A DNA stretch of 64,000 bases from the NCBI GenBank assembly GCA_036013505.1, contig CP107851.1, forward strand, positions 4,411,501-4,475,500, in the 5' to 3' direction. Origin of the DNA: Streptomyces sp. NBC_00510. Lineage in GTDB: Bacteria > Actinomycetota > Actinomycetes > Streptomycetales > Streptomycetaceae. The notes beneath the pieces are model-generated. The model ran no database searches and was not told the origin of the DNA. It worked only from the letters and a program-made list of their open reading frames with translations. A program made the translations under genes and the position numbers. Below, one piece after another: positions 13,726 through 51,472 of this stretch (the stretch's first letter is position 1; each line of letters begins with the position of its first letter).

Positions 13726-15855
<2,130 letters not shown>

Positions 15856-15897
15856 AAGGCTTCAGTCTTCTCTCGGTTCTCTCGATGGGGGCGCGGA

Positions 15898-16368
15898 CTA
15901 CCAGCGGTAGTGCGCGAAGGCCTTGTTGGACTCGGCCATCTTGTGGGTGTCCTCGCGACGCTTCACCGCGGCGCCCAGACCGTTGCTGGCGTCCATCAGC
16001 TCGTTCATCAGACGCTCGGTCATGGTCTTCTCGCGGCGGGCGCGGGAGTAACCCACCAGCCAGCGCAGCGCCAGGGTGTTGGCACGGCCGGGGCGGACCT
16101 CGATCGGCACCTGGTAGGTCGCGCCACCGACACGGCGGGACTTGACCTCCAGGGAGGGCTTGACGTTCTCCAGGGCGCGCTTGAGCGTGATGACCGGGTC
16201 CTGCCCGGTCTTCTCGCGCAGGCCCTCGAGGGCGCCGTACACGATGCGCTCGGCGGTGGAGCGCTTGCCGTGCAGCAGGATCTTGTTGACGAGCGACGTC
16301 ACCAGAGGAGAACCGTAGACCGGGTCGATGATGACCGGGCGCTTCGGGGCGGGGCCCTTACGAGGCAT
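15898..16368 (-). CDS. rpsG: 30S ribosomal protein S7
   Basis: S7 (156 aa) is the primary binder of the 16S 3' domain. [20 protein letters not shown] at the start and the C-terminal AHYRW are typical of bacterial S7. It starts 2 bp after the rpsL stop. Confidence 0.98.
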
Positions 16369-16370
16369 TC

Positions 16371-16742
16371 TTACTTCTCCTTCTTGGCGCCGTAGCGGCT
16401 GCGGGCCTGCTTGCGGTTCTTGACACCCTGGGTGTCGAGCGAACCGCGGATGATCTTGTAGCGAACACCCGGCAGGTCCTTCACACGACCACCACGCACG
16501 AGCACGATGGAGTGCTCCTGCAGGTTGTGACCCTCACCCGGGATGTAAGCGGTGACCTCGATGCCGCTGGTCAGTCGCACACGCGCGACCTTACGCAGGG
16601 CAGAGTTCGGCTTCTTCGGGGTGGTCGTGTAGACGCGCGTGCAGACGCCGCGGCGCTGAGGGGAACCCTTCAGTGCGGGCGTCTTGTTCTTCTCGACCTT
16701 GTCCTGCCGGCCCTTTCGGACCAGCTGCTGGATCGTAGGCAC
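16371..16742 (-). CDS. rpsL: 30S ribosomal protein S12
   Basis: S12 (123 aa) controls decoding accuracy. Lysines at 43 (TTPKKPNS) and 88 (GGRVKDLPG), the usual positions of streptomycin-resistance mutations, are both wild type. It heads the str operon, 300 bp from the next gene upstream, with the shared hairpin element in its leader. Confidence 0.98.
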
Positions 16743-43792: not shown

Positions 43793-44260
43793 ATGCCGAT
43801 GAAGCCCCCGGCACCCCCGTTCACCCGCGAGACCGCGATCGAGAAGGTCCGCCTCGCGGAGGACGCCTGGAACAGCCGCGACCCCGAGAAGGTGTCCCTC
43901 GCCTACACACCCGACAGCCGGTGGCGCAACCGCGGTGAGTTCGTCCACGGGCGGGAGGAGATCGTCGCGTTCCTCACCCGCAAGTGGACCAGGGAGCAGG
44001 AGTACCGGCTCATCAAGGAGCTCTGGGCCTTCGACGGCAACCGCATCGCGGTCCGCTTCGCCTACGAGTGCCACGACGACTCCGGCAACTGGTACCGCTC
44101 GTACGGCAACGAGAACTGGGAGTTCGACGACGAGGGCCTGATGCGCGTACGGCTGGCCAGCATCAACGACACCCCGATCGCCGAGTCGGAGCGCGCGTAC
44201 CACTGGCCGCTCGGACGGCGCCCCGACGATCATCCCGGTCTGTCCGACCTCGGGTTCTGA
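43793..44260 (+). CDS. DUF1348 (NTF2-like) protein
   Basis: A 155-aa protein with the nuclear transport factor 2-like fold of DUF1348: [62 protein letters not shown]. The family is widespread and uncharacterised. Its 3' end overlaps the small convergent gene at 44230 by 31 bp. The 236-bp gap before it (43557-43792) shows no gene. Confidence 0.88.
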
Positions 44261-44475
44261 GCGGCCCGCGCCTGCCGCCGCAGCTCCACGCGGGCCGCGG
44301 GCGACCGGCCGGGGCCGGTACGCCAGTACGGGTGCCAGAACAGCCGGCAGGAGAGCCAGAGCAGGCGTCGTCGCAGGATCGCCGCGTGGGCGGGCTCCGC
44401 GGCGAGTTGCGCGTAGGTGCGGTGCCATTCGCGCTGCGCCTGCACCAGGTCGGGCGGGAACACGGTGTCGGCCAT
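44230..44475 (-). CDS. Small conserved hypothetical protein
   Basis: An 81-aa basic protein ([21 protein letters not shown]), helical, with a tryptophan-rich middle ([14 protein letters not shown]). The G/C third-position pattern supports coding. The stop lies inside the end of the convergent DUF1348 gene. I do not recognise a function. Confidence 0.65.
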
Positions 44476-44565
44476 GCACAGGATTCAATCATGTGTTCGA
44501 TTTACTGCGCACGCCTCACACGTCACTCGTAGGGGTGAGCTTGCCGCGGCGCCCGCGTCGGACGT

Positions 44566-44605
44566 CCGGTGACCCCGGGGCTCCCTTGCGCCCCGGGGTC
44601 ACCGG
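44566..44605 (-). terminator. doxX terminator
   Basis: A perfect 15-bp inverted repeat (CCGGTGACCCCGGGG, 44566-44580, with 44591-44605), 31 bp past the DoxX stop. Confidence 0.88.
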
Positions 44606-44635
44606 GCAGGTGCACCCCCGGTACGGGGGCCCGGC

Positions 44636-45187
44636 CTACAGGTTCAGGACGACCAGCGCCCCCACGCCGCCCAGGGCCAGCGCGACGGCGGCATCGGCCC
44701 AGCCGCCCCTCCCCCAGCGGAAGTACCGGTCCAGCGCGAGCCTCCCTGGGCCGATGGCGGCGATGCCGAGGGCGACGACGGTGATGGCCAGGTTGTACTC
44801 GATGCCGCCCTGCTCGTCCCACAGCCCGCGGGCGCCGGTCACCGTGACCATGGCGTTGATCATCACGCCGATCAGCGCCGCCGCGGCGAGCGGGGTGAAC
44901 AGCCCCAGCGCCAGGCCCACGCCGCCCAGGAACTCCGAGGCCCCGCCGATGGCGGCGAAGACCTTCCCCGGCGAGTAGCCCATCATCTCGAAGCTCTTGC
45001 CGGTGCTGGTGAGCCCCTGGCCGCCGAACCATCCGAAGAGCTTCTGGAGCCCGTGCCCCGCCATCAGGACACCGAAGGTGAGCCGGATCAGCAGCAGGCC
45101 GCAGTCACCGGCGGTCACCCGCGGCGGCGCCTGTACGGCGTCCTCGGCCTGCGGCTGGACGCGCAATCGTTCGGCTATGTGATGCAT
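44636..45187 (-). CDS. DoxX family membrane protein
   Basis: A 183-aa membrane protein with four hydrophobic helices. RLTFGVLMAGHGLQKLFGWFGG is the DoxX signature after a cytoplasmic N-terminus of about 30 residues. The ATG at 45187 follows GAGGGG with proper spacing; the ORF extends nine codons upstream. DoxX proteins are linked to thiol/redox homeostasis in mycobacteria, but its role here is unknown. Confidence 0.9.
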   Translation of the reverse strand: MHHIAERLRVQPQAEDAVQAPPRVTAGDCGLLLIRLTFGVLMAGHGLQKLFGWFGGQGLTSTGKSFEMMGYSPGKVFAAIGGASEFLGGVGLALGLFTPLAAAALIGVMINAMVTVTGARGLWDEQGGIEYNLAITVVALGIAAIGPGRLALDRYFRWGRGGWADAAVALALGGVGALVVLNL

Positions 45188-45374
45188 GGGGAAACCCCTC
45201 GTCAGTGCAGTCACCGCGGATCACACAGGCATCCCTCCTCCCTCAGCAGGAGGTACGCGACAGCTGTGTGCCACGTTCAACCACTTCCCCCTCTTTCGCA
45301 CATCTCATCCCGAAATGCCGGAAGTGCCGGGTGGTACCGATGCCCACCGGTGGCCGGCGGTGGCCTCGCGTCGC

Positions 45375-46025: not shown

Positions 46026-46055
46026 TGCAACCCTCCGCGCGCATTCGGGAGTACC
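46026..46055 (+). promoter_or_regulatory. Candidate ECF-type promoter of the secreted twin-domain gene
   Basis: TGCAACC at 46026-46032, then a 17-bp spacer and AGTACCTAC. The -35-like block resembles those used by ECF sigma factors, so the SigE-family sigma encoded just downstream is a natural candidate. The palindrome GGCCACCG-CATC-CGGTGGCC (46078-46097) follows in the untranslated leader. Confidence 0.35.
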
Positions 46056-46185
46056 TACGAATGGACGTCCAAGCGGCGGCCACCGCATCCGGTGGCCACC
46101 GCAGGCTGGCGCGCGGGCCCACGCGCCGGCCGTCAAGGACCGCCCGGCGCGGTGCCGGGTGGCGGCTTCGAAGGAGAAATGCTCC

Positions 46186-46872
46186 GTGGCTCTCAGTTTT
46201 GCCAGGAAGGCAGGCGTGGCGGCCGCCGCGGCGGTCGCGATCGGCGCGATGTCGCTCGGCGCCTCCGCCATGGCGGCGCCGTCGGCCCCGTCCGCCCCGG
46301 CCACGCACCGCGCCGGCGCACCCGCCGCCGTGGCCGCGAAGGCGGTCGCCGCGCCCGGGAAGCAGGCGCCCCAGGTCGTCACGCAGCTGATCGGCAAGGG
46401 CCGGGTGGACGGCAAGCGCTGGTCGGTGGCGCTGGAGTTCCACCGGACGCTGCCGGAGGGCTACGACCTTCCCACGTCCCCCGACGGCACCACCGCGCCC
46501 GGCACGGCGCTGCTGTGCCAGCGCATGTACATCGACGGGGTCCGCATCGACCACCAGGGCGGTCCCTGGTCCGACTGCCAGCCCGTCACCGGCGCCCACG
46601 ACCCCGCCGGCAGCGGCGGCATGGGCCTGTGGGGCTTCCAGGACAAGGGCACCACCGGCTCCCGCCTCATGGTCTCCAACCCCGAGGCCGCCATCGCGTA
46701 CGGCGTCGTCGAGCTCACCGACGGCACCCGTCTGAAGGCCGCCACGGTCACCGTCCCCGGCACCGACTACCGTGCCTGGGCCGTCGCCATACCCGACGGC
46801 AGGACCATCGCCGCCGTCGACCAGTACGACAGCCACCACCACCGCCTCAGCCACGACACCTACTGGCGCTGA
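46186..46872 (+). CDS. Secreted protein with the twin C-terminal domain (copy 1)
   Basis: A 228-aa exported protein. Residues 1-30 form a signal peptide (SFARKAGVAAAAAVAIGAMS, cleavage after about ASAMA). After an A/P-rich linker, residues 79-228 form a folded domain with two cysteines (LLCQRM, SDCQPV) that could form a disulfide, ending HHHRLSHDTYWR. The domain is 131/150 identical to the C-terminus of the membrane protein at 47457. The GTG at 46186 follows AAGGAG; 30 bp downstream comes a SigE-family sigma gene. I recognise no known family, so it is described rather than named. Confidence 0.85.
   Translation: MALSFARKAGVAAAAAVAIGAMSLGASAMAAPSAPSAPATHRAGAPAAVAAKAVAAPGKQAPQVVTQLIGKGRVDGKRWSVALEFHRTLPEGYDLPTSPDGTTAPGTALLCQRMYIDGVRIDHQGGPWSDCQPVTGAHDPAGSGGMGLWGFQDKGTTGSRLMVSNPEAAIAYGVVELTDGTRLKAATVTVPGTDYRAWAVAIPDGRTIAAVDQYDSHHHRLSHDTYWR
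46420..46872 (+). repeat. Direct repeat, copy 1 of the 150-codon twin domain
   Basis: This 453-bp block, including the stop codon, recurs at 47793-48245, 1373 bp away in the same orientation. The encoded domains differ at 19 of 150 positions; long DNA stretches such as the segment encoding GTALLCQRMYI are almost identical, so the copies share a recent ancestor or are kept alike by gene conversion. Confidence 0.9.
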
Positions 46873-46902
46873 TCCCGGGAAGAAGGACGGGCACCTCCTG
46901 CC

Positions 46903-47460
46903 GTGCAGCCACGTGACCACCTAGCCGAGGGCAGCGAACCGGACGCGGAGTTCACCCGGTTCGTCGCCGCCCGCTGGCGCGCCCTGACGCACACCGCGTA
47001 CCTGCTCACCGGGGACTTCCACGAAGCGGAAGACCTGGTGCAGTCGACGCTGGCCAAGGTGTACCCGCACTGGGGGCGGTTGCGGCCCGAGCACGCGGAG
47101 CACTACGTGCGGCGGGCGCTGGTCAACACCAACCGCAGCCGGCACCGCCGCCGCAGGATCGCCCACCTCCTCCTCCCGTCACTGCCCGACACCCGCCCCG
47201 CCCCCGAGGACGGGGCGGGTGTCGGGGGCGTGGACGGGTACGACGCCCTGGCCCGCCTGCTCGCCGGACTGCCCGAGCGGCAGCGGGCGGTCGTCGTGCT
47301 GCGCTACTGCGAGGACCTGTCCGCGGAGGAAGTGGCGGACGTCCTCGGGTGCTCGGTCGGCACCGTGAAGAGCCAGGCCTCCCGGGCCCTGGACAAACTG
47401 CGCAACCGGGCGACCCTCGCCCGTCTTCACCCGTCAAGCCGCCCCGCAGAGGCACGATGA
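46903..47460 (+). CDS. SigE-family ECF RNA polymerase sigma factor
   Basis: A 185-aa sigma factor. Region 2 (FVAARWRALTHTAYLLTGDFHEAEDLVQ) and region 4 (LPERQRAVVVLRYCEDLSAEEVADVLGCSVGTVKSQASRAL) are complete, with the LTGDFHEAEDLVQSTLAKVY form typical of the actinobacterial SigE family. The linker codons contain a 14-bp perfect inverted repeat (47187-47224). Its stop overlaps the ATG of the next gene (ATGA), so the two are translationally coupled. A zinc anti-sigma is absent; the neighbouring membrane protein may take that role. Confidence 0.92.
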   Translation: MQPRDHLAEGSEPDAEFTRFVAARWRALTHTAYLLTGDFHEAEDLVQSTLAKVYPHWGRLRPEHAEHYVRRALVNTNRSRHRRRRIAHLLLPSLPDTRPAPEDGAGVGGVDGYDALARLLAGLPERQRAVVVLRYCEDLSAEEVADVLGCSVGTVKSQASRALDKLRNRATLARLHPSSRPAEAR

Positions 47461-48245
47461 CTCCCGACCACGACCGCCGTCCCGCCCAAGAGGACTGGCT
47501 GCGCGACGCCTTCGCCCGGTCGCGCGACGCCTACCCCGCCTCCCAGGCCCCCGTCGACCGGATCCTCGCCACCGCGCGGGCGCGCAGGAAGCGCCACCGC
47601 GCGGCGGTCGCCGTCGGCGCCGTGGCCGGTGCCGCCTGCGTCCTCGCCGTCGTCGTGGCGGTGTCGATCCAGGGGGCCCGCCCCTCCGCCGGCCCCGCGG
47701 ACCGTTCCTCCCCGGCGGCGAGCCCGACCGCCACCGCGACGCCCGGCCCCCTCACCGTCCGGGTGGCCGGCGGCACGACCGGCGGCGCCCCCTGGTCGGT
47801 GGCGCTGGAGTTCCACCGGACGCTGCCGCGGGGCTACCGCCTCCCCACCCTCCCCGACGGCACCACCGCCCCCGGCACGGCGCTGCTGTGCCAGCGCATG
47901 TACATCGGCGGCATCCGCATCGACCACCAGGGCGGCCCCTGGTCCGACTGCCAGCCCGTCACCGGCGCCCACGACCCCGCCGGCAGCGGCGGCATGGGCC
48001 TGTGGGGCCTGCACGACAAGGGCACCACCGGCTCCCGCCTCATGGTCTCCAACCCCGAGGCCGACGTCGCCCACGGCATCGTCAACCTCACCGACGGCAC
48101 CCACCTCAAGGCCACCACCGTCACCGTCCCCGGCACCGACTACCGCGCCTGGGCCGTCGCCATACCCGACGGCAGGACCATCGCCACCGTCGACCAGTAC
48201 GACACCCACCACCACCGCCTCACCCGCGACACCGACTGGCGCTGA
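47457..48245 (+). CDS. Membrane protein with cytoplasmic N-domain and twin extracellular domain (copy 2), candidate anti-sigma/sensor
   Basis: A 262-aa bitopic protein. Residues 1-48 are charged and cytoplasmic (EDWLRDAFARSRDAYPASQAP, RARRKRHR); 49-71 form one membrane helix; 72-112 are an S/P/T-rich linker; 113-262 are the domain shared with the secreted protein at 46186. The ATG overlaps the sigma stop, the standard arrangement for an anti-sigma or co-sensor. No zinc-binding HxxxCxxC motif is present. It is inferred, not shown, that the N-terminus binds the sigma factor. Confidence 0.82.
   Translation: MTPDHDRRPAQEDWLRDAFARSRDAYPASQAPVDRILATARARRKRHRAAVAVGAVAGAACVLAVVVAVSIQGARPSAGPADRSSPAASPTATATPGPLTVRVAGGTTGGAPWSVALEFHRTLPRGYRLPTLPDGTTAPGTALLCQRMYIGGIRIDHQGGPWSDCQPVTGAHDPAGSGGMGLWGLHDKGTTGSRLMVSNPEADVAHGIVNLTDGTHLKATTVTVPGTDYRAWAVAIPDGRTIATVDQYDTHHHRLTRDTDWR
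47793..48245 (+). repeat. Direct repeat, copy 2 of the 150-codon twin domain
   Basis: Partner of 46420-46872. Differences cluster in residues 13-20, 91-98 and at the extreme C-terminus of the domain, with runs of more than 15 identical residues elsewhere. Confidence 0.9.
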
Positions 48246-48696: not shown

Positions 48697-50745
48697 ATGA
48701 ACCGACCCAGAGGCGCGACGGTCGCCACGGCCGCCACCGTCGTGCTCGCCACCGCGGGCGGCCTGCTCACCGCGGCCACGCCCGCTTCCGCCGCCGTGAC
48801 CTGCACGTCGCCGGTCTTCAAGCGGACGTTCTACGCGAACACCACATTTTCCGGGACACCCAGGCACACGGACTGCGACTCCGCGATCGACCAGAACTGG
48901 GGCACCGGCGCGCCCTACAAGGGCCTGCCGGTCAACAACTTCGGCGTCCGCTGGTCCACCACACGCGACTTCGGTTCCGGCGGGCCCTTCACGTTCACCG
49001 CTTCCTCCCGCGACGGCATCCGCGTCTACCTCGACGGCGTCCGCAAGGTCGACCTGTGGAAGAACGTGTCGTCCACCGTGCGCAGGACCGCCAACGTCAC
49101 CGTCCCTTCCGGCAAGCACACCCTGCGCGTCGACTTCGTCAACTGGACGGGCGCGGCCAACGTCACGTTCGGCTACGCCCCCCGCACGTCGGCGACGGTC
49201 GACAAGGTCAAGCCCCTCGTCCCGGCCGGCACCACCGTCGCCTACAGCGCTAACACCGCGTCCACGAAGGTCGGCTGGGCGAAGAACAAGGAGATGGACC
49301 TCGTCGGCTACCGCGTGTACCGGCGGCTGAAGGGCGCCTCCTTCCCCTCGAAGCCGATCGCCACCACGACGTCCACCTCGTACACGGACACGACCGTCCC
49401 GAAGGACGGCAACGTCTACTACTACGAGGTCCGCGCCTACGACAAGGCCGGCAACACCTCGTCGGGCACCGCCGACCTCGGCATCACCACCGTCGACCGC
49501 ACCGCCCCCGCCGCCCCGAAGGGCGTCGAGGAGAACTGGGCCATGGGCTACCCCGGCACCATCACCCTGTACTGGGACAGCAACTCCGAGCCCGACCTGG
49601 CCGGCTACCGCGTCTACCGCTCGACGTCCCTGCCGGTCGCCCTCACCCCGGAGAACCGGGTGACCGGCGACGCCTTGTCGCACGGCGGCTACACGGGGCC
49701 GCTGCCGCCGACCGGCGACATCCACTACTACGTGGTCACCGCCGTCGACACGCACGGCAACGAGTCGGCGGCCTCCAAGGCGGCGATGTACTACACCCGC
49801 GACCTGACGGGTCCGGTCGACACCGCACTCAACGCGCGCGGCCGGGAGGACGAGGCAGGCGTCACGCTGACCTGGGATCCCTCCGAGCGGACCAGCGACG
49901 ACTTCGCGGGCTACACCGTCATCCGGTACGCCAATCCGCGCGGTACCGGGGGCCCGCGGGAGGTGGTCGGCACGGGGGTCGAGGGCACCACGTTCACGGA
50001 CCCCGCGCCGCCGCCCGGCGCCACCTACTACTACGGGGTGGTCGCGGTCGACCACGCGGGCAACGGGGGCACCCCGTCCCAGGAGGTCGTCGTCACCGTC
50101 TCCGGGAACACGACGGCTCCCGCCCCGGTCACCGGCCTGACCGCCGACCCCAAGGAGAACGGCGTCACCCTCACCTGGGACGCCGACACCGCACCGGGCC
50201 TCGACCACTACCGCGTGCTGCGCGGCACGTTCGCCGACGGGCGGTGGACGTACGCCCCGCTGATCGACCCCTGGACCCTGCGGCCGCGGGAGATCAAGGC
50301 GACGACCTTCCACGACCGGACGGCGGCCGACGGCCAACGGATCCGCTACGCGGTCGTCTCCGTCGACCAGTACGGCAACCAGCTCACCCCCGACACCGGC
50401 GCCACCGTCACCGAGGTCACCGAACTCGACCTCCGCCCCACCGCCCCACCGGCGACCGGCGCCCCGATCCACCTGAACAGCAACGAGACCGGCTCCCTCC
50501 ACTGGTTCCTCACCGACGACAGGAACGCCAACGGCAGCCCGGTGACCGCCTTCACCGTGAGCCGATGGAACCGCGAGAGCGGGAGCTTCGACGTGCTCGC
50601 CACGGAGCCCAAGGGCAACTCGACCGACTGGTACTGGTCCGACCGCACCCAGCCGGCCGCCACCACGGTCTACTACCGCGTCACGGTCCTCTACGCGGAC
50701 GGCACGGAATCGGGCGCGTCCGAGGTCGCCGCCCTGAGCTACTGA
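48697..50745 (+). CDS. Secreted PA14/fibronectin type III repeat protein
   Basis: A 682-aa exported protein. A signal peptide (about 1-33, ending AASAAV) is followed by a PA14-like domain (about 40-165: WGTGAPYKGLPVNNFGVRW, SRDGIRVYLDGVRKVDLW, SGKHTLRVDFVNWTG) and about five fibronectin type III repeats with recurring GYRVYR and YYYEVRAYDKAGN motifs. No catalytic domain is visible, so a role in carbohydrate or cell-surface binding is the best guess. The ATG at 48697 has an AGGAG upstream. It is followed by a strong terminator. Confidence 0.87.
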   Translation: MNRPRGATVATAATVVLATAGGLLTAATPASAAVTCTSPVFKRTFYANTTFSGTPRHTDCDSAIDQNWGTGAPYKGLPVNNFGVRWSTTRDFGSGGPFTFTASSRDGIRVYLDGVRKVDLWKNVSSTVRRTANVTVPSGKHTLRVDFVNWTGAANVTFGYAPRTSATVDKVKPLVPAGTTVAYSANTASTKVGWAKNKEMDLVGYRVYRRLKGASFPSKPIATTTSTSYTDTTVPKDGNVYYYEVRAYDKAGNTSSGTADLGITTVDRTAPAAPKGVEENWAMGYPGTITLYWDSNSEPDLAGYRVYRSTSLPVALTPENRVTGDALSHGGYTGPLPPTGDIHYYVVTAVDTHGNESAASKAAMYYTRDLTGPVDTALNARGREDEAGVTLTWDPSERTSDDFAGYTVIRYANPRGTGGPREVVGTGVEGTTFTDPAPPPGATYYYGVVAVDHAGNGGTPSQEVVVTVSGNTTAPAPVTGLTADPKENGVTLTWDADTAPGLDHYRVLRGTFADGRWTYAPLIDPWTLRPREIKATTFHDRTAADGQRIRYAVVSVDQYGNQLTPDTGATVTEVTELDLRPTAPPATGAPIHLNSNETGSLHWFLTDDRNANGSPVTAFTVSRWNRESGSFDVLATEPKGNSTDWYWSDRTQPAATTVYYRVTVLYADGTESGASEVAALSY

Positions 50746-50808: not shown

Positions 50809-50890
50809 ACCGAGTCGTCGTCCGCCGGTGCGGGAGCCCGCGCTGCGAAAATCCAGCGTCGGCGAGCTCACCTCGTGCCACGATCGGCGC

Positions 50891-51472
50891 ATGTGGAACG
50901 TCACGGAGGTGCACGAGCGGCTCCAGGCGCTGACCGAAGCCGACCCCGGCCATCGGCGATTCGGTGCGGCACGTCACCGCTACCTGCTCGACCCGCCGGT
51001 CACGGAATCCCGAATAGCCCGCTTCGAGCAGGAGCACGGGATAAGCCTTCCTCCTTCTTACCGCGCCTTCATCACGGCAGTGGGAAGCGGGGGCGGGGGG
51101 CCTTGCCACGGGCTGTTCCGGTTCGGCAGTGAAGTGTGGGCACGCCAGCAGACCGATCTCGGCGAACGGTGGGCAGACCTGCCGGCCACACCGTTCCCCC
51201 ACACCGATCGCTTCCAGCCCTGGCCCGAGGAGACGGCCCGTCCACGGCACGCTCCCGAAGACGAGTACTACGACCCGTGCTGGTTTACCGGCTCACTCGT
51301 CATCGCCGAGATCGGCTGCGCCTCCTACTTCCGCCTCGTGGTCACCGGCGAGGCCCGCGGCCAGGTCAGGTCGGACCACCTCCTCTCCGACCAGGGGCTC
51401 AACCCCGGCCCGGACTTCCACGACTGGTACATGCAGTGGCTGATGAACCCCGGTGGCACAGTGGGCTCTTGA
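50891..51472 (+). CDS. SMI1/KNR4 family protein
   Basis: A 193-aa protein. The core VTESRIARFEQEHGISLPPSYRAFI (about 40-65) and the downstream GNGGGGPCHGLF-like glycine loop match the SMI1/KNR4 fold, often an immunity protein against polymorphic toxins, though stand-alone members also exist. The ATG at 50891 fits the family. It is convergent with a DUF4259 gene 8 bp away. No toxin gene is adjacent. Confidence 0.88.
   Translation: MWNVTEVHERLQALTEADPGHRRFGAARHRYLLDPPVTESRIARFEQEHGISLPPSYRAFITAVGSGGGGPCHGLFRFGSEVWARQQTDLGERWADLPATPFPHTDRFQPWPEETARPRHAPEDEYYDPCWFTGSLVIAEIGCASYFRLVVTGEARGQVRSDHLLSDQGLNPGPDFHDWYMQWLMNPGGTVGS

Follow-up and report, generated by a model that had tools for sequence, protein, structure and literature searches.

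Several described systems resemble parts of the locus considered here, an operon in a 64,000-nucleotide stretch of Streptomyces sp. NBC_00510 (GCA_036013505.1, contig CP107851.1, positions 4,411,501 to 4,475,500 of the forward strand; hereafter the window). In this operon, a SigE-family sigma factor gene lies between the genes of a secreted protein (S) and a single-pass membrane protein (M) that carry nearly the same exported domain. A majority of the extracytoplasmic function (ECF) sigma groups, 102 of 157, are without functional insight according to the part of a survey drawn on here (PMC8103513). In the biomass-sensing RsgI/SigI systems of Clostridium thermocellum, RsgI6 has a GH10 domain, and the excerpted portion of the report (PMC4711584) places a GH10 enzyme, xyn10Z, under SigI6. 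As in S-sigma-M, the type of domain exported by a membrane-bound sigma regulator is also found in a secreted product of the sigma factor. On the other hand, the domains and the sigma factor are unrelated and the products, as far as this excerpt goes, are enzymes of a larger regulon, whereas the output of S-sigma-M is the bare sensor domain, encoded in the same operon and homogenised with the sensor in sequence. In Bacillus subtilis RsiV/SigV, the exported domain of the membrane anti-sigma factor directly binds an extracellular protein, lysozyme (PMC4183432); unlike in S-sigma-M, no secreted copy of the domain is described in the sections of that source used here, and the likeness is one of description. 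In the mammalian CEACAM family, which has secreted members, the Ig-like ligand-binding domains of a signalling receptor and of decoy-type relatives are kept alike by gene conversion and recombination, according to the passages of the source cited (PMC2832619). This is an analogy of logic only, with an animal family, and homology is not claimed. In the open literature, no paper was found that unites these features in a single bacterial operon, nor one that describes, for a bacterial sigma/anti-sigma system, a receptor held similar to its soluble twin by repeated gene conversion, and TIGR02983, the model of the SigE family, was not found named in any paper.

The features of the operon are as follows, in positions of the window.

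46027..46053, + strand: promoter-like motif GCAACC-N14-GGGAGTA, the presumed promoter of an autoregulated operon
46186..46872, + strand: S, secreted protein with signal peptide, Ala/Pro-rich linker and exported domain; relatives hold the same position in other triads
46420..46869, + strand: exported domain of S, last 150 residues
46903..47460, + strand: SigE-family (TIGR02983) sigma factor, from Pfam and NCBIfam scores
47457..48245, + strand: M, single-pass membrane protein and candidate anti-sigma factor/sensor, from gene overlap and hydropathy
47457..47603, + strand: N-terminus of M on the cytoplasmic side, about 49 residues, candidate for binding of the sigma factor, from a motif seen by eye and the shape of other SigE partners
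47607..47663, + strand: transmembrane segment of M, residues 51-69, hydropathy peak 2.72
47793..48242, + strand: exported domain of M, last 150 residues, 131/150 identical to the domain of S

S extends from a GTG start at 46186 through the stop at 46872 (228 residues) and has a Sec-type signal peptide as judged by eye; a second hydrophobic stretch or sorting signal was also looked for by eye and none was seen. The sigma gene, from GTG at 46903 through the stop at 47460 (185 residues), scores 184.5 bits against TIGR02983 (cut-off 141.55) and is thus a member of the SigE family. It matches PF04542 (sigma-70 region 2) and PF08281 (region 4) above the Pfam cut-offs, the two regions that define an ECF (group IV) sigma factor. 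M runs from ATG at 47457, overlapping the sigma stop codon as ATGA, through the stop at 48245 (262 residues). The arrangement given in the preliminary description, which was made from the letters of the window, is therefore confirmed: a SigE-family sigma factor stands between S and a translationally coupled M with one hydrophobic segment. The near-identity of the exported domains that it reported is likewise borne out, 131 of the last 150 residues and also 416 of 450 nucleotides being identical, with both cysteines at the same two positions. Compared without gaps, S and M match at 60 of 120 nucleotides before the domain and at 23 of 60 after the stop codons. S is found with M as query at E 5.2e-95, far above chance, and a search of their genome found no copies of the domain besides these two. 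The homologous domain is about 160 residues long and starts about 12 residues upstream of these 150.

Many lineages, though not all, have homogenised S and M domains. In a 66-domain tree (the short fragment S_L083 left out; a few rows with long-branch warnings), S and M are no better separated than shuffled labels: the S label requires 25 changes against a mean of 22.4 for shuffled labels, 462 of 500 shuffles being as low, and the well-supported branches alone force 17 changes. Two full rows of Streptomyces sp. SKN60 are labelled by place, whereas their signal peptide and membrane segment give the reverse labels; the rows are identical and the tree is unaffected. Of the 29 non-redundant triads, 26 enter the analyses below, which leave out L089, L091 and L094 (L numbers denote loci). 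For 21 hand-chosen pairs of loci, third codon positions at which S equals M within each genome while differing between genomes were counted against those at which S equals S and M equals M across genomes while S differs from M. The first class prevails in pairs of the window with L067 (19:1), L072 (31:1), L076 (33:3), L080 (36:2) and L093 (52:0), and likewise in L067/L072 (29:1), L067/L068 (17:2), L067/L073 (21:1), L072/L073 (28:2), L072/L068 (26:2), L076/L080 (28:4), L098/L092 (32:0) and L092/L097 (11:3). The counts are small in L098/L099 (4:0), L098/L100 (8:0) and L099/L100 (4:0), and weaker in L030/L031 (13:7) and L030/L033 (12:8). It does not prevail in L032/L034 (0:23), window/L027 (4:5) and L093/L103 (2:2), and the pair of the window was thus not freshly converted since the split from Actinacidiphila glaucinigra.

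Synonymous divergence (dS) between S and M is 0.00-0.06 in 5 of the 26 triads (L067, L072, L093, L098, L100), and 0.12 in the window. The low values of L067 and L072 compare with 0.25-0.35 between orthologous domains (pairs L067/L072 and L067/L068), and the corresponding orthologue values are 0.15-0.34 for L093, 0.08-0.13 for L098 (S-M 0.00) and 0.08-0.20 for L100 (S-M 0.05). In the copy that was read from the plasmid of Streptomyces sp. NBC_01643, S and M are identical at 488 of 489 nucleotides, with the sole difference in the stop codon, and in SKN60 the two domains are identical in protein. In 15 of the 26 triads (15 of 29 when L089, L091 and L094 are counted), the closest domain to M is the S of its own triad and not the M of another, and own S-M identity averages 72% (about 68% with these three). 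Where the sigma factors are 70-80% identical (129 pairs of loci), S-S identity is 53% and M-M identity 48%, and the ectodomain thus varies faster than the sigma factor. The own-pair mean was never reached in 10000 random re-pairings of S and M, which ignore relatedness and are not used as proof. Nei-Gojobori dN/dS appears high for some domain pairs while YN00 gives no value for many, and no claim of diversifying selection is made.

The signal peptides, the promoter and the sigma-M overlap stay with their own genes across the triads, which argues for conversion limited to the domain and not for repeated birth of S from M. The latter, a new duplication in each lineage with within-genome similarity as its recent trace, is very improbable. 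It would yield the same domain tree, and yet the promoter motif, the signal peptides of S, the similar S-sigma spacing and the sigma-M overlap are common to the triads, and homogenisation is confined to the domain. S and M may have to recognise one shared thing, as judged from these sequence comparisons. The proposal of the preliminary description that S is a ligand, decoy or dimer partner becomes more plausible, because S and M have been recurrently homogenised.

The domain could not be named in the preliminary description, and this still stands: no Pfam or NCBIfam model matches it above cut-off in S or M. For the whole of M, no Pfam family is found at E 1 and no NCBIfam model exceeds its cut-off, the RsgI models not having been looked up individually. 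A set of 36 domains gave just two stray weak families in Pfam, and the best match in a sequence search of the PDB (E 0.47) is taken as chance. An AlphaFold2 model of the S domain (single chain, residues encoded from 46384, 20 sequences) is nearly all beta, with a predicted local distance difference test score (pLDDT) of 92.8 and a predicted template modelling score (pTM) of 0.86. In this model, residues 78-162 resemble beta-sandwiches of the immunoglobulin (Ig) and fibronectin type III (FN3) kinds (best Z 8.0, root-mean-square deviation 3.0, 83 residues aligned, 6grs_A, with many tied matches; best Foldseek E 0.042), a modelled arrangement that is common and would be uninformative on function. 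The whole domain has no Foldseek match at E 0.001 in the PDB or a viral library. The N-terminal half modelled alone (residues 1-91, pLDDT 77.1) resembles no chain at Z 5 or more. The two invariant cysteines, residues 45 and 65, lie in the part preceding the Ig-like half and probably form a disulfide. Over 20 domains from the genus, S and M taken together, 26 columns are invariant, and over 36 domains sampled more widely, 6.

An anti-sigma or sensor role of M, as suggested in the preliminary description, is likely, although it is ordinary for a SigE-family sigma factor and not unconventional as had been supposed. M proteins have a conserved N-terminus of about 45 residues, by eye of the type LxxALARSxxxxxPSPAPVxxILxxGRARRxRRR, before one hydrophobic segment, and the layout is about 49 cytoplasmic residues, the hydrophobic segment, a linker and the domain. 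The M start overlaps the sigma stop (ATGA or GTGA) in 25 of 26 triads. The genome of the window contains 11 other TIGR02983 genes above cut-off, and 8 of them are followed by a protein of the shape of M. The tail motif, the overlap and this recurrent shape together make the role likely and at the same time ordinary. Zinc (ZAS) anti-sigma factors carry an HxxxCxxC motif in their cytoplasmic part; residues 1-49 of M contain no cysteine, and hence no such motif, and M matches no Pfam family. The locus thus resembles other loci of a TIGR02983 sigma factor with a single-pass partner in the score of the sigma factor, the layout of M and a related ectodomain: a profile of the ectodomains of five distant M-like proteins (L107-L111) aligns to the S/M domain over 159 columns (hhalign 98.6%, E 1.2e-15), which places the domain in a broader group of ectodomains of SigE partners. 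It differs in the second copy, S, which is the unusual part of the module and looks like a derived duplicate. No similar copy of the partner's exported part lies near the 9 other SigE loci of the genome that were searched (tblastn, E 0.01), nor upstream of the distant M-like proteins at the six loci L106-L111.

That M is no anti-sigma factor at all, with the sigma factor controlled through transcription of its own gene and with S and M as cell-surface products of the operon, is hardly probable. The missing Pfam match, which leaves M without a described anti-sigma domain, and the short, cysteine-free cytoplasmic part of about 49 residues would agree with it, while the translational overlap, the conserved cytoplasmic motif and the same layout after 8 of 11 other SigE sigma genes speak against it.

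TGCAACC-N14-GGGAGTA ends 132 nucleotides upstream of S; it is unique in the 64-kb window and absent from 100 shuffles. ECF promoters have AAC at -35 and CGT at -10 as hallmarks in the part of the survey drawn on here (PMC8103513). AAC is present in TGCAACC, and GGGAGTA is found instead of CGT at the presumed -10 place. In 28 of 29 triads, a relaxed form of the motif precedes S, and in the remaining one, L086, the contig ends about 235 nucleotides before the domain. The relaxed pattern was drafted after some of the sequences had been viewed, and 28/29 is thus not a blind count; the strict pattern is cleaner, yet it was also read off these operons. The strict motif was scanned in 20 of the 25 triad genomes (G041, G050, G084 and G096 left out, the genome of the window scanned separately) and occurs at the operon in 16. 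Elsewhere it occurs at 5 sites in these 20 genomes versus 5 in 20 genomes of the genus without a triad, and the reversed pattern at 5 and 7 sites, respectively. The strict motif is therefore at background elsewhere, which would most simply mean few strong targets of the sigma factor beyond its own operon, with S as its main product. The layout and the motif were also examined in the seven distant sigma+M genomes (L106-L112). At L106, where sigma and M were found and S was not, a promoter-like motif stands about 175 nucleotides before the sigma match, so autoregulation may have preceded the arrival of S.

The genome of the window has two strict sites, one of them at the operon. The other (G000:C1:2499400-2499426; L113:1501-1527) lies 14 nucleotides before a possible start of a lipoprotein open reading frame, which is not counted as a regulon member since a 66% identical relative in G008 has no motif at its locus. 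The leader between the motif and S (46054-46185) contains an inverted repeat of the CGCCCGGC..GCCGGGTGG type ahead of the ribosome-binding site. By eye, it is also present at L027, L030, L067, L072, L076 and L080, and missing from L098 and L100, whose leaders are short.

Among the genomes sampled, the module is rare and of narrow taxonomic range, a domain match being borne by 37 of 394 Streptomycetaceae genomes and by 3 of 394 in a sample of the class, the latter including the genome of the window and all within Streptomycetaceae. S-sigma-M is present in 25 of the 37 genomes; in 3, S stands at its locus with sigma missing, in 7, sigma has a distant M-like match and S was not found, and 2 are truncated at contig ends; the match at L112 from the family search was not recovered on inspection of the layout. 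Of 35 genomes in the genus, 13 give a match at E 0.001: both copies are present in 10, with a sigma gene between them in every pair, and 3 have weak partial matches only. The closest named relative is A. glaucinigra (L066, S domain 91% identical), and named triad loci include Streptomyces echinatus, S. musisoli, S. seoulensis, Kribbella rubisoli and Wenjunlia vitaminophila. A search of a plasmid collection gave one record. The linear plasmid of Streptomyces sp. NBC_01643 carries the triad (OHB03_RS03620-03630) at mirrored positions about 15 kb from both ends (NZ_CP109267.1, 696165-698240, L178, and 14551-16425), presumably in terminal inverted repeats. In viral contigs, 53 stretches fit a peptide pattern and none encodes a relative. 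The order is S-M-sigma in Streptomyces sp. SKN60 (L083:281-4363), next to a second, decayed copy of S and a sigma gene whose reading frame is broken.

S also occurs apart from sigma and M. At L071, L090 and L102, the flanks match triad loci on both sides, which indicates loss of sigma and M from one and the same position. The match of L090 to its relative L091 extends through S and resumes about 80 bases on, from 21 bases past the end of the M match. L071 (S. griseofuscus) keeps the upstream flank and rejoins DNA that lies about 2 kb downstream of M in relatives. L102 keeps both flanks and is a remnant that has lost sigma, M and the signal peptide. At L087, the upstream side is matched and a downstream match was not found. 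The best sigma relatives in these four genomes are 44-57% identical to the sigma factor of the window, values such as paralogues show; S. griseofuscus has likely lost its cognate sigma factor, while for the drafts this is not certain. The promoter motif is kept at L071 and L087, and not seen at L090 and L102. S can thus, it appears, outlive its switch. Occurrence of the domain in unrelated contexts without sigma factors had been named in the preliminary description as a point that would refute it; this is borne out only weakly, by 3 of the 37 genomes (one with the remnant lacking a signal peptide) and S. griseofuscus, and at L071, L090 and L102 it reflects loss from a triad locus.

Collectively, these observations are tentatively explained, at a little under an even chance, by a self-contained, autoregulated signalling operon in which S, a soluble copy of the sensor, would bind and soak up what M binds. 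The tail of M would tether the sigma factor at the membrane while its exported beta domain reads an extracellular signal. Binding of the signal would free the sigma factor for transcription of its own operon from the GCAACC/GGGAGTA promoter, and the first product would be S, the presumably secreted copy of the exported domain of M. By soaking up the signal of M, S would exert negative feedback or neutralise a harmful molecule, the sensor ectodomain doubling as an effector. The specificities of S and M would have to match while shifting between lineages, and gene conversion would be repeatedly kept for this reason. Two points place this explanation first: competition for the signal is the simplest role for a soluble sensor copy whose synthesis depends on the sigma factor of that sensor, and at some loci S has outlived M. 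Several points weigh against it. Binding, the anti-sigma action and the ligand are predictions, and close direct repeats can convert passively. Late conversion is absent from some lineages (L032/L034, 0:23; window/L027, 4:5, or 11:20 at all positions; L093/L103, 2:2, or 4:7 at all positions), S-M identity is merely 27-34% in L089, L091 and L094, and only 6 columns are invariant among 36 domains. The strict pattern may be too narrow for the actual promoter, and other targets could then be missed. In addition, S is an open frame at L071, L087 and L090 with sigma and M missing from the locus, and a role of S independent of M is possible.

Close behind, and on the whole doubtful, is a homotypic signal, in which secreted S would itself be the ligand, bound by its close counterpart in M on the cell that made it or on a neighbour, as a measure of density, kinship or wall permeability; self-recognition would then be kept through homogenisation as the domain drifts between strains. 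It shares the homogenisation data with the sink for the signal of M, and the place of S in the operon of the sigma factor is that expected of an autoinducer; the domains differ strongly between species and less so within a genome. On the other hand, association of S with S or M is hypothetical, the structure models are single-chain, and S is found without M at L071, L087 and L090. Passive concerted evolution is somewhat less probable still. Here the direct repeats, about 1.3 kb apart, would recombine occasionally and S would be an ordinary secreted envelope protein under the sigma factor, as their proximity and orientation, the loci that have lost sigma and M, and the diverged pairs L028, L029, L089, L091 and L094 would allow. 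Homogenisation is found in many lineages, however (at least 17 forced changes of the S label), and extends to the stop codon of the domain; 26 columns are invariant in the 20 genus domains, though 6 over the wider 36, and the repeat persists even though it endangers the sigma gene.

The operon might be a bacterial paired-receptor system, in which a soluble twin of the ectodomain, made by the same operon, would be kept matched in specificity, genome by genome, through gene conversion while this specificity changes between lineages, as in an arms race of receptor and decoy or in self-recognition; we regard this broader view as possible, at somewhat less than an even chance. A soluble sensor domain is a ready-made reagent for finding the ligand, and the S/M pair allows a direct test of matching specificity.

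PADLOC models of anti-phage defence gave no family for S, sigma or M (E 0.01). Upstream of the operon (43793-45214) are genes of a DUF1348/SnoaL-like protein (+) and a DoxX family protein (-). Downstream, a PA14-domain protein is encoded at 48697-50742 and an SMI1/KNR4 (SUKH-1) family protein at 50828-51469.

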